A stretch of DNA of 64,000 nucleotides, taken from the NCBI GenBank assembly GCA_021776515.1, contig JAJFFS010000003.1, positions 1 through 64,000 of the forward strand. Direction: 5' to 3'. Below are positions 4,197 to 59,100 of the stretch, one piece after another; position 1 is the first letter of the stretch, and each line of letters opens with the position of its first letter. Source of the stretch: Robiginitomaculum sp. (GTDB lineage: Bacteria > Pseudomonadota > Alphaproteobacteria > Caulobacterales > Maricaulaceae). The translations under genes and the position numbers were made by a program. The notes under the pieces were generated by a model. That model made no database searches. It saw only the letters and a list, made by a program, of their open reading frames with translations, and was not told where the DNA came from.

Positions 4197-4219
4197 CATC
4201 CTGAGCTTGTCGAAGGATG
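4197..4219 (+). repeat. REP-like 23-bp palindrome, copy A
   Basis: CATCCT and AGGATG arms enclose GAGCTTGTCGA. This is the same element as at 4617, 4711, 53830, 58509, 58553, 58915 and 59077. It is intergenic, in a stretch from 4045 to 4925 that has no recognisable gene. Confidence 0.85.
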
Positions 4220-4554: not shown

Positions 4555-4739
4555 GTCATCCCCCCGTCGTCAGCCCGGCGAAGACCGGGAACCCTGTATT
4601 TGTTTTCCACCCACCTCATCCTGAGCCTGTCGAAGGATGGATCCAGTCATCCTCCCCGTCGTCAGCCCGGCGAAGACCGGGAACCCTGTATTTGTTTTCC
4701 ACACCCACCTCATCCTGAGCCTGTCGAAGGATGGATACT
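4555..4739 (+). repeat. Composite tandem duplication of two REP-like palindromes (copies B and C)
   Basis: A unit of about 92-94 bases occurs twice. Each unit has a first palindrome around CCCGG-CGAAGA-CCGGG, a spacer containing TGTATTTGTTTTCCAC, and then the 23-bp palindrome in a variant with GAGCCTGTCGA (4617-4639 and 4711-4733). The two units are nearly identical, so the duplication is recent. ORFs through this region only reflect the repeats. From 4740 to 4925 I see only a weak inverted pair (GCCCCATC / GATGGGGC). Confidence 0.85.
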
Positions 4740-8711: not shown

Positions 8712-9680
8712 ATGGCTTTACCTGAGGTAAGCATGCGTCAGCTTTTGGAAGCAGGCGTACATTTTGGACACCAGAAACACCGCTGGAACCCACGTATGGA
8801 ACCCTATATTTTTGGGGTTCGTTCCAATATTCACATTTTGGATCTATCACAGACCGTACCACTTTTGCATCAGGCATTGGTGAAGGTGCGCGAAGTGGCA
8901 GCCAAAGGCGGGCGGATTTTATTTGTCGGCACAAAACGCCAGGCCAGTGACGTTGTTTCGGCTTCGGCCAAACGCTGTGCTCAATATTACATCAATCATC
9001 GCTGGCTTGGTGGAACGTTGACCAATTGGACGACTATTTCGCATTCGATCAAACGTTTGCGTGAGCTGGAAGGGCTTCTGGCAGAAGATGCGCAAACGGG
9101 CCTGACAAAAAAAGAACTTATTAAATTGACACGCGAGCAAGACAAGCTTGAGCGTTCACTTGGCGGCATTAAGGACATGGGCGGTGTTCCGGATTTGATG
9201 TTCGTTATCGACACAACCAAAGAGGTGATTGCGCTTTGCGAAGCTCGTAAACTGCATATTCCTGTTGTTGCTGTTATTGATACAAACTCAGACCCCAAGG
9301 ATGCTGACTACCCAATACCTGGCAATGATGATGCAACGCGTGCGATTGCACTCTATTGTGATTTGATAGCAGACGCAGTTCTGGATGGCATGGCTGATGC
9401 CCAGGCTGGTTTGGGCGTTGATCTTGGTGCTGCTGAAGAACCTGTTGAGCTGGCCCTGAAAACTGAAAAACCTAAAGCCAAGGCAGAACCTAAAGCTGAG
9501 GCAGAACCTAAAGCCAAGGCAGAACCTAAAGCCAAGGCAGAACCTAAAGCCAAGGCAGAACCTAAAGCTGAGGTAGAACCTAAAGCTGAGGCAGAACCTA
9601 AAGCTGAGGCAGAGCCTAAAGCTGAGGTGGAACCAAAAGCCAAGGCAGAGCCTAAAGCTGATAAAACCAAAGAAAAGTAA
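8712..9680 (+). CDS. rpsB: 30S ribosomal protein S2 with extended repeat tail
   Basis: The first 250 or so residues are a normal S2 (start [20 protein letters not shown]; later [12 protein letters not shown] and [19 protein letters not shown]). S2 binds the head-body junction of the small subunit. The product is 322 aa, against about 240 in E. coli. The excess is a C-terminal tail of hexapeptide repeats of the form [12 protein letters not shown], rich in Lys, Ala, Glu and Pro and probably unstructured. Extended S2 tails occur in other alphaproteobacteria. It heads the rpsB-tsf-pyrH-frr operon. Confidence 0.98.
9468..9662 (+). repeat. 18-bp tandem repeat inside the 3' end of rpsB
   Basis: Ten full 18-base units of the type CCTAAAGCCAAGGCAGAA, after one partial unit, encode the hexapeptide tail of S2. 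Units differ only at a few bases (AAG/GAG and GCA/GTA codons). The high similarity between units points to recent slippage, so copy number may vary between strains. Confidence 0.95.
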
Positions 9681-53829: not shown

Positions 53830-53852
53830 CATCCTTCGACAAGCTCAGGATG
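53830..53852 (-). repeat. REP-like 23-bp palindrome, copy D
   Basis: The reverse-orientation copy (CATCCT-TCGACAAGCTC-AGGATG) lies between the convergent hflX and mazG genes. It is the same element as the copies at 4197 and 58509-59099. Confidence 0.9.
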
Positions 53853-53893: not shown

Positions 53894-53939
53894 CTCATGC
53901 TGAGGGATTGCATTTATGCAATTGTCTCGAAGCATGGAG
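53894..53939. repeat. Long-form palindrome related to the 23-bp REP
   Basis: Outer arms CTCATGCT and AGCATGGAG enclose GAGGG on one side and TGTCTCGA on the other, with an inner hairpin ATTGCAT-TT-ATGCAAT. The outline CTCATnCTGAGG...GTCTCGAAGnATGAG is a common dispersed repeat form in Rhizobiales. The short REP looks like the same element with the apical hairpin removed. It lies between hflX and mazG, 41 bases past copy D. Confidence 0.65.
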
Positions 53940-58508: not shown

Positions 58509-58575
58509 CATCCTTCGACAAGCTCAGGATGAGGCGGCGTTTCATATTTCCTCATCCTGAGCTTGTCGAAGGATG
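58509..58575. repeat. Inverted pair of REP-like palindromes, copies E and F
   Basis: A reverse copy (58509-58531) and a forward copy (58553-58575) are 21 bases apart. Copy F ends 11 bases from the stop codon of the GIY-YIG gene. They form the left border of the proposed unit. Confidence 0.92.
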
Positions 58576-58586
58576 GATCACCGTAC

Positions 58587-58901
58587 TCAGATGGATGACT
58601 TAGCATTTTCTGTATAGTTCATAGCGAGCGTTTTAATTTTACTCCAATCTCCAGCAGTTAGGGCTTCTTTCTTCGCTCGACTCCACCCCTTTATTTGACG
58701 CTCTGTTGCGATTGCATCGGTTACATTAACAAATCTCTCGGCCCAGACTAATTCAACAGGGCGGCGGGAATATGTATAGGCTTTCTTGTTTTTTCCTGCA
58801 TTATGCTCATGAACGCGTGTTTCGGGACTTTGGCCACGATGAGAGCCAACATAATAGCGGCCATCTGCACAACGCAGCATATAGACCCAAGAGTCAGACA
58901 T
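58587..58901 (-). CDS. GIY-YIG family endonuclease, REP-associated
   Basis: This 104-aa protein is a single GIY-YIG nuclease domain with VYMLRCADGRYYVG (the GIY and YIG strands), SPETRVHEHNAGKNKKAYT with the active-site Arg, and TERQIKGWSRAKKEAL with the metal-binding Glu. It resembles the small UPF0213/YhbQ-like group, with no separate DNA-binding domain. Such proteins nick or cut branched DNA. The gene is closely enclosed by REP palindromes: 11 bases after its stop and 13 before its start. That arrangement suggests the nuclease and the repeat form one mobile or maintained unit. Host repair use is an alternative. Confidence 0.93.
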   Translation of the reverse strand: MSDSWVYMLRCADGRYYVGSHRGQSPETRVHEHNAGKNKKAYTYSRRPVELVWAERFVNVTDAIATERQIKGWSRAKKEALTAGDWSKIKTLAMNYTENAKSSI

Positions 58902-58914
58902 TGTATTAACCTTC

Positions 58915-58937
58915 CATCCTTCGACAAGCTCAGGATG
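58915..58937 (-). repeat. REP-like 23-bp palindrome, copy G
   Basis: This reverse-orientation copy lies 13 bases upstream of the GIY-YIG start. With copy F it makes a pair of inverted termini around the nuclease gene, 385 bases from end to end. Confidence 0.92.
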
Positions 58938-58980: not shown

Positions 58981-59100
58981 CTCATCCCGAACTTCAAATT
59001 CACACCTCATCCTGAGCTTATCCCCCACCTCATCCTGAGCTTATCCCCCACCTCATCCTGAGCTTATCCCCCACCTCATCCTGAGCTTGTCGAAGGATAA
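58981..59100 (+). repeat. Tandem array of truncated REP units ending in a full copy
   Basis: Three 23-base units (59003-59071) each read CACCTCATCCTGAGCTTATC followed by CCC. A fourth unit carries the full palindrome (about 59077-59099). A diverged unit (CTCATCCCGAACTTC) starts the array. The three truncated units lack the GTCGAAGGATG half and are identical to each other, so they arose by recent tandem expansion. The array sits just upstream of aroQ. Confidence 0.9.

Follow-up and report, generated by a model that had tools for sequence, protein, structure and literature searches.

Small GIY-YIG nuclease genes between copies of their own REP-like palindromes: a candidate nuclease-repeat partnership in Alphaproteobacteria and Bacteroidota

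Introduction

REP-like palindromes rank with the most frequent repeats found in bacteria, and the CGTC REPs are one large class of them. The accessible text of Di Nocera et al. (2013, PMC3733652) reports that RAYTs move the GTAG class of REPs and that a dedicated transposase was not found for the CGTC REPs, which are mostly alphaproteobacterial; it names no GIY-YIG partner for them. In the first 64,000 nucleotides of contig JAJFFS010000003.1 of Robiginitomaculum sp., the stretch analysed here and hereafter called the window, a small GIY-YIG nuclease gene lies between inverted copies of a short palindrome. The locus raises the question of whether such a nuclease recognises and spreads the repeat that surrounds it.

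The nuclease gene and its bracketing palindromes

The features of the window are as follows.

58587..58901, reverse strand: GIY-YIG nuclease gene, 104 aa, subfamily B (YVGSHRG...KGWSR), from the ORF, PF01541 and an alignment with 15 relatives
58553..58575, forward strand: B-type palindrome, inner copy, 11 bp past the nuclease stop (repeat search)
58509..58531, reverse strand: B-type palindrome, outer copy, inverted doublet with 58553-58575 (repeat search, doublet fold)
58915..58937, reverse strand: B-type palindrome, inner copy, 13 bp before the nuclease start (repeat search)
59077..59099, forward strand: B-type palindrome, outer copy on the start side of the nuclease gene (repeat search)
59003..59091, no strand: tandem 23-bp array of half-repeats (CACCTCATCCTGAGCTTATCCCC) running into the outer copy (repeat family D2, spacing 23)
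53830..53852, reverse strand: B-type palindrome without gene, short centre, doublet with the 53896..53936 copy (repeat search)
53896..53936, forward strand: B-type palindrome without gene, long centre (repeat search)
4197..4219, forward strand: B-type palindrome without gene (repeat search)
4617..4639, forward strand: B-type palindrome without gene, CCTG centre (repeat search)
4711..4733, forward strand: B-type palindrome without gene, CCTG centre (repeat search)

The encoded protein matches the Pfam profile PF01541 with 56.4 bits, against a cut-off of 22.6. Residues Y6, Y16, G18, R28, H32 and E66 are invariant in the alignment of 16 sequences that includes the window nuclease, and residues of this kind are the catalytic ones of the GIY-YIG family. 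Among the best 80 of 546 relatives, the closest is L066, from a Robiginitomaculum MAG, with 82% identity.

The palindromes at 58553-58575 and 58915-58937 are the same 23-bp sequence (CATCCTGAGCTTGTCGAAGGATG) in opposite orientations, and the 28-nt arms on either side of the gene are 100% complementary, forming terminal inverted repeats around it like those of an IS or a MITE. A preliminary description of this DNA had reported the 104-aa reverse-strand gene, the two flanking palindromes at these distances, a further inverted copy just outside the unit and copies elsewhere without the gene. All of these were recovered, the unit spanning 385 bp (58553-58937), the outer copy lying at 58509-58531 and the copies without gene starting at 4197, 4617, 4711 and 53830.

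The repeat reads CCTC-ATCCT...AGGAT-GGA in the window, with a stem of 6–7 bp and an asymmetric 11-nt core. The doublet 58509-58531 plus 58553-58575 forms a single hairpin with a folding energy of -31.8 kcal/mol (z -12.7), whereas a lone B-type repeat folds like shuffled sequences (z about -1), the strong fold being seen for the doublet alone. The half-repeat array at 59003-59091 adjoins the outer palindrome, a picture of repeats growing by tandem duplication as well.

Repeats and GIY-YIG genes across the genome

The 2.57-Mb genome to which the window belongs (G000) holds 112 copies of the 18-mer core of the palindrome, allowing at most two mismatches, and none of the reversed control pattern; the geometry of the copies was taken from 100 of the 112. 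For 30 copies studied with their flanks, 27 lie outside ORFs of at least 300 nt, although such ORFs make up 63% of those loci. The repeat thus shows the generic features of REPs, being a short palindrome of high copy number and intergenic position. Arrays of palindromes with 47-bp spacing are present at C7:118754-119147 (at least nine copies) and C8:339732-339890 (at least four copies) of this genome.

Five matches to PF01541 were found in the genome, one in a long UvrC-like frame and four in small genes. Each of the four is flanked on both sides, within 250 bp, by palindromic repeats, and for three of them both flanks hold a single repeat class. Two subfamilies can be told apart. Subfamily B comprises the window gene and a paralogue on C7 ('YVGSHRG...KGWSR'), which lie beside repeats built as stem-TGAG-centre-TCGAA-stem; subfamily A comprises the genes on C14 and C18 ('NGTLYxGVT'), which lie beside repeats built as GTCAT-stem...stem-CCA. 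The C18 gene (L005/L185, near position 78649) is preceded by an A-type doublet and followed by a B-type repeat; its protein contains a short internal repeat, 'KYTGVT'.

Enrichment of repeats beside the nucleases

The bracketing observed in the window recurs in relatives of both subfamilies. The loci were the best 80 of the 546 relatives found, from GTDB genomes, together with relatives in further genomes of the order and class, and the detectors of the two classes recorded a B-type or an A-type repeat within 250 bp of the gene. In Alphaproteobacteria, 103 of 117 loci of B nucleases have a B-type repeat, 73 of them on both sides, and two have an A-type repeat. For A nucleases, an A-type repeat occurs in 29 of 50 loci (both sides in 19) and a B-type repeat in three. 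Control genes have B-type repeats in 56 and A-type repeats in 57 of 930 cases, and on both sides in three (B) and one (A). These counts leave out the contig-end loci L090, L130 and L136 (three of the 80), one of 20 added loci, and L061 and L175, which have an in-frame stop; eight weak matches (L053–L060) were kept out of the B count.

Within 250 bp of B nucleases there are 4.53 B-type repeats per kb, and in the remainder of these loci 0.059 per kb; the lack of enrichment beside the gene that the preliminary description had named as a refutation is not seen. In 58 of the 73 loci with repeats on both sides, the nearest two are mutually inverted. The A count of 29 of 50 is probably low, since the detector overlooks repeats of the GTCACCCTCGA...TCGAGGGTGAC type, which by eye flank the A-subfamily loci L184 and L190; some of the 21 loci without an A-type match carry such a related repeat outside the detector.

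Passive clustering or artefact could also place repeats beside these genes, if the repeats were terminators or target-prone gaps and small orphan genes lay near them by chance or through the choice of motif. The repeats are indeed mainly intergenic, and the detectors were designed after some flanks had been viewed; the first A detector proved too strict (9 of 29) and was widened after its misses had been inspected. The count was therefore repeated on loci whose flanks had not been viewed, and gave 49 of 50 for B and 16 of 30 for A. Four of these 50 B loci (L066, L071, L080, L089) have proteins identical to those of loci already viewed; among the 30 A loci, L193 and L198 had been viewed as L060 and L058, and for the ten loci L191–L200 the matches of the first detector were known but the flanks were not. 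A test free of motifs agrees: of 77 B loci, 51 have an exact inverted 12-mer common to both flanks of the nuclease gene, and of 921 other genes there, 17 do. ORFs of 80–150 aa in the same loci have a repeat in only 11 of 215 cases, and on both sides in one of 215. With the match of class and subtype to the nuclease, these results make an artefact very improbable.

Repeat subtypes, nuclease clades and stem structure

The centre of the B-type repeat is either short (at most 6 nt, e.g. CTTG) or long, with a second hairpin, and the same subtype is found on both sides in all 73 both-sided B loci. On a tree of the B nucleases (106 rows, being 100 different proteins since some genomes were reached twice; 105 columns), the subtype needs six changes, against a mean of 30.8 for shuffled labels, none of 500 shufflings being as low; many branches of this tree are weak, and near-copies aid the clustering. 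Two genomes, G000 and G003, hold two B paralogues each, one beside the short and one beside the long subtype. Since each paralogue within one genome lies beside its own subtype, the match cannot be put down to the host.

The outer stem varies in its letters and retains its pairing. In 72 loci, anchored on the core alone, 4.33 of six pairs form between the arms of one repeat, compared with 2.73 ± 0.13 when arms are re-dealt (maximum 3.07 in 500). This pairing despite changing letters indicates that the folded form of the repeat is being kept. The pairing of nuclease and repeat stands as the preliminary description had it, as one part of a wider pattern: a second subfamily is paired with a different repeat class, and repeat subtypes track the nuclease clades.

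Both the subtype match and the stem covariation require recognition only. They are compatible with a nuclease that maintains structure, trimming or resolving extruded hairpins so as to limit harm or stabilise arrays, and staying among the repeats for its own regulation. A controller of this kind should lower the number of copies, and the association described below for Alphaproteobacteria and Bacteroidia is positive; maintenance alone also fails to explain the many gene contexts of the nuclease. We regard it as improbable.

Copy number across genomes

Copies of the pattern CCTGAGN{3,33}TCGAAGG were counted in 241 alphaproteobacterial genomes that are at least 95% complete. The median is 36 (3–271) in the 23 genomes that encode a B nuclease and 2 (0–87) in the 216 that do not; the comparison leaves out the intermediates G242 (73 copies) and G087 (21). 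At least 20 copies are present in 17 of the 23 B-positive and in three of the 216 B-negative genomes. The preliminary description had considered that the repeat might be equally common in genomes lacking this subfamily, which is not what these medians show. The mean of B-positive genomes exceeds that of B-negative genomes in 10 of the 11 families holding both kinds, family f8 being the opposite.

A similar association was observed in 197 genomes of Bacteroidia with the pattern CTGAGCN{2,4}GTCGAAG. The median is 9 in the 53 genomes that encode a B nuclease, 1 in 69 with weaker matches only and 0 in 75 with none, and at least 20 copies are found in 21, 12 and 4 of these genomes, respectively. 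A B-type repeat flanks the gene in 18 of 27 loci, on both sides in 10, leaving out three of 30 loci (L294, L298, L299) that the gene finder overlooked. The control genes here are not clean: there are 17 in those short loci, with a repeat beside two and on both sides of one. In L275 and L277, by eye, a C-G pair adjoins the core (CGAG...TCGAG), giving repeats of the same build that fall outside the detector. The copy-number results of both groups are associations, in which relatedness is partly controlled.

The association has exceptions in both directions. The counted pattern is scarce in the B-positive genomes G245 (3 copies), G176 (4) and G145 (8), and in Bacteroidia four of the 53 have none. 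On the other hand, G116 holds 87 copies and no B nuclease, its single PF01541 match lying in a 688-residue frame; G357 (215 copies), G338 (164) and G364 (77), of the Bacteroidia, have no match; and in G175 (51 copies) and G242 (73) no B-type repeat adjoins the best GIY-YIG genes. To these add the 12 of 69 Bacteroidia genomes noted above that reach 20 copies with weaker matches only. Gene loss, an overlooked partner or another mobiliser would explain repeat-rich genomes of this kind. Genomes G116, G357, G338 and G364 are candidates for a recent loss of the nuclease or for another partner. The intermediate nucleases L146, L148 and L149 were considered as the cause of the repeat richness of G087, G175 and G242 and rejected, since no B-type repeat adjoins these best GIY-YIG genes.

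The genomes rich in repeats without the gene (G116, G357, G338) favour the main rival explanation, that of a homing passenger. Something else would then spread or preserve the repeats, and a selfish gene would insert into, or stay beside, the repeat that its nuclease cuts; recognition would be real, and the nuclease would not multiply the repeat. GIY-YIG homing endonucleases are well known, which adds to the appeal of this explanation. The rise of copy number with the nuclease in all but one of those families is what a driver of the repeat predicts, although repeat-rich genomes may just offer more targets. In addition, 19 of 77 loci carry a full doublet on each side (exact 12-mers), and not one target split in two. 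On balance, we consider a homing passenger unlikely.

Transposases and other partners

If a RAYT or another transposase of the IS200/IS605 type moved the repeats, the nuclease would be incidental. Y1_Tnp (PF01797) is matched in seven of the 23 B-positive genomes, and RAYTs do move REPs of the GTAG class, as the accessible text of PMC3733652 states. However, the genome of the window has no Y1_Tnp match, and neither do 16 of the 23 B-positive genomes; these 16 include genomes with 208, 166, 112, 84 and 62 copies. The window repeat, moreover, has no GTAG tag. This explanation is therefore largely refuted for Y1 enzymes and has hardly any probability left overall; the earlier suggestion that the enzyme is not a RAYT is supported. 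A search of Rfam gave seven matches up to E 1, all far under the gathering scores. Among viral contigs, one stretch matched a pattern and none encoded a relative of the nuclease. Relatives were found in seven plasmid records, too few for testing movement from replicon to replicon; six of these regions were examined.

Sites, presence and absence

The 80 GTDB loci, the best 80 of the 546 relatives, represent 61 gene contexts. A count of neighbour pairs from greedy ORF calls (68 pairs) was discarded in favour of this number, having overlooked known synteny. So many contexts fit a gene moving among repeats, as a homing passenger would. In some genera the nuclease gene is fixed at one orthologous site, so the gene itself moves rarely.

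The gap between thiS and aroQ is readable in 14 genomes of the genus. Nuclease and repeats are both present in four (G000, G003, G005, G007), repeats without nuclease in two (G004, G010) and neither in seven; G008 has, by eye, a single degenerate repeat below the detector. L211 does not span the gap, and the detector match of G014 lies outside it and looks like chance. The two genomes with repeats alone again fit a homing passenger. In G010 (L204), an A-type repeat array with B-type remnants lies where other genomes of the genus have the B nuclease.

Presence and absence at matching sites was also observed for doublets, which occur in L113 and not at the sister sites in L107, L114 and L139, and in L109 and not in L079. 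Of the empty sites and scars suggested earlier as a check, empty sites were found, at thiS-aroQ and for the doublets; the relatives concerned are too diverged for junctions or target-site duplications to be read. Synteny in Bradyrhizobium (L078, L082, L091) showed no gain or loss of a B-type repeat. The sole REP-like doublet difference there, in alignment columns 9336-9454, is of the GTAGGGTGGGC type, present in two species (L078, L082) and not in the third (L091).

Two tandem nuclease genes, 88% identical and each between inverted B-type repeats, are found in Christiangramia echinicola (L142, 143736-144719); the first is without the glycine of YxG. Since the duplication extends past the repeats, it is a plain tandem duplication.

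Proposed mechanism

We propose that the GIY-YIG nuclease and the REP-like repeat form a partnership, which probably works as REPs and RAYTs do, with another enzyme. Within this reading, the nuclease very probably recognises its own repeat class specifically, and that it drives the spread of the repeat is somewhat better supported than the contrary; mobilisation of the repeat by the nuclease appears likely from the genomic patterns. The nuclease would recognise the hairpin of its own class, made of a variable outer stem, GAG, centre, TC, an unpaired GA and the outer stem again. When DNA is supercoiled, or serves as lagging-strand template, inverted pairs of repeats may be extruded, forming hairpins or a cruciform, and the nuclease, recognising the extruded repeat by its GAG...TC-GA core, may nick or cut there. 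Repair would then copy, re-insert or restore doublets in intergenic gaps. A gene bracketed by repeats may occasionally be carried along, and lone repeats and doublets would be non-autonomous copies.

Each of these steps draws on its own evidence. We infer recognition of the hairpin because subtypes match the nuclease clade and the structure of the repeat is kept; cutting is suggested because the GIY-YIG residues, catalytic in this family, are conserved; spread through repair is suggested by copy number and by presence and absence. The preliminary description had suggested that a GIY-YIG enzyme may recognise the repeat and mobilise or maintain it, which is partly supported. Enrichment, clade match and copy number speak for the partnership. 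Against it speak the repeat-rich genomes without the nuclease, the B-positive genomes with few copies, family f8, the 21 A loci without an A-type match, the ordinary folding of a single repeat and the genera in which the gene stays in place.

Comparison with known systems

The pairing was found in Alphaproteobacteria and Bacteroidota, with single loci in Ignavibacteriota and Burkholderiaceae. The recurrence in many bacteria of a match between enzyme type and repeat type points to an enzyme that spreads the repeats or maintains them. Its likeness to the REP/REPIN-RAYT system lies in short, mostly intergenic palindromes of high copy number, often in inverted doublets and with lone copies without the gene, and in a small nuclease gene placed between copies of its own repeat variant. 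It differs in that the enzyme is a GIY-YIG protein and not the Y1 HUH enzyme TnpA-REP, the GTAG tag is absent, the core is GAG...TCGA, and most of the genomes are without Y1_Tnp.

As for the CGTC REPs, the accessible text of PMC3733652 describes a tag CGTC (or TGTC, CCTC), a stem of 8–9 starting with AT, a loop of 4–5 and a tail CCA. The A-type repeats at L001, one locus compared by eye with that text, have the tag CGTC, a stem of 8 starting with AT, a loop of 4 and the tail CCA. The window repeats share the AT start and the CCTC tag, a published variant; on the other hand, their stem of 6–7 bp, 11-nt core and GGA tail depart from this description. No account of a link between GIY-YIG proteins and such repeats appeared among the literature matches listed, preprints being outside their scope, nor in the accessible text of PMC1564403, PMC12306157, PMC5082802 and PMC6006769.

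We further advance a more tentative proposal, in which our doubt slightly outweighs our confidence: that there are two or more subfamilies of small GIY-YIG nucleases, each recognising and multiplying a structured palindrome of its own, and that together they may constitute an unrecognised class of bacterial mobile DNA. They might then be the missing enzyme of the CGTC REPs and of further palindrome families, in parallel to REP-RAYT, with a hydrolytic nuclease moving DNA through host repair. With one matched nuclease per repeat class, the question of the CGTC REP enzyme becomes directly testable. If the proposal is true, many genes annotated merely as 'GIY-YIG nuclease family protein' would gain a function, and RAYTs could be compared with another, chemically distinct means of keeping REPs.

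Free-standing GIY-YIG homing endonucleases, the kin of I-TevI, give mobility to their genes by DNA cutting and repair. The genes described here are similar in being GIY-YIG genes that may move through cutting and repair. They differ in that a high-copy repeat accompanies the gene and in that the loci show a wide range of contexts and not one conserved target gene, although the repeat itself may be the target.

The predicted fold of the window nuclease (pLDDT 90) is closest to UPF0213 and then, weakly, to Slx1 (E 0.03–0.1), whose structure-entry titles refer to branched-DNA processing; this resemblance is in line with a nuclease that maintains structure. Slx1 is eukaryotic, works with Slx4 and is not known to be linked to repeats. 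The GIY-YIG proteins of the UPF0213/COG2827 type (1zg2, 1ywl; YazA/YhbQ) have the same fold and profile as the window nuclease. They differ in their setting, the Bacillus-type yazA lying in an operon between trmNF and rsmI in two loci; one of these loci has no repeat match, and the other has one weak AT-rich match inside coding DNA.
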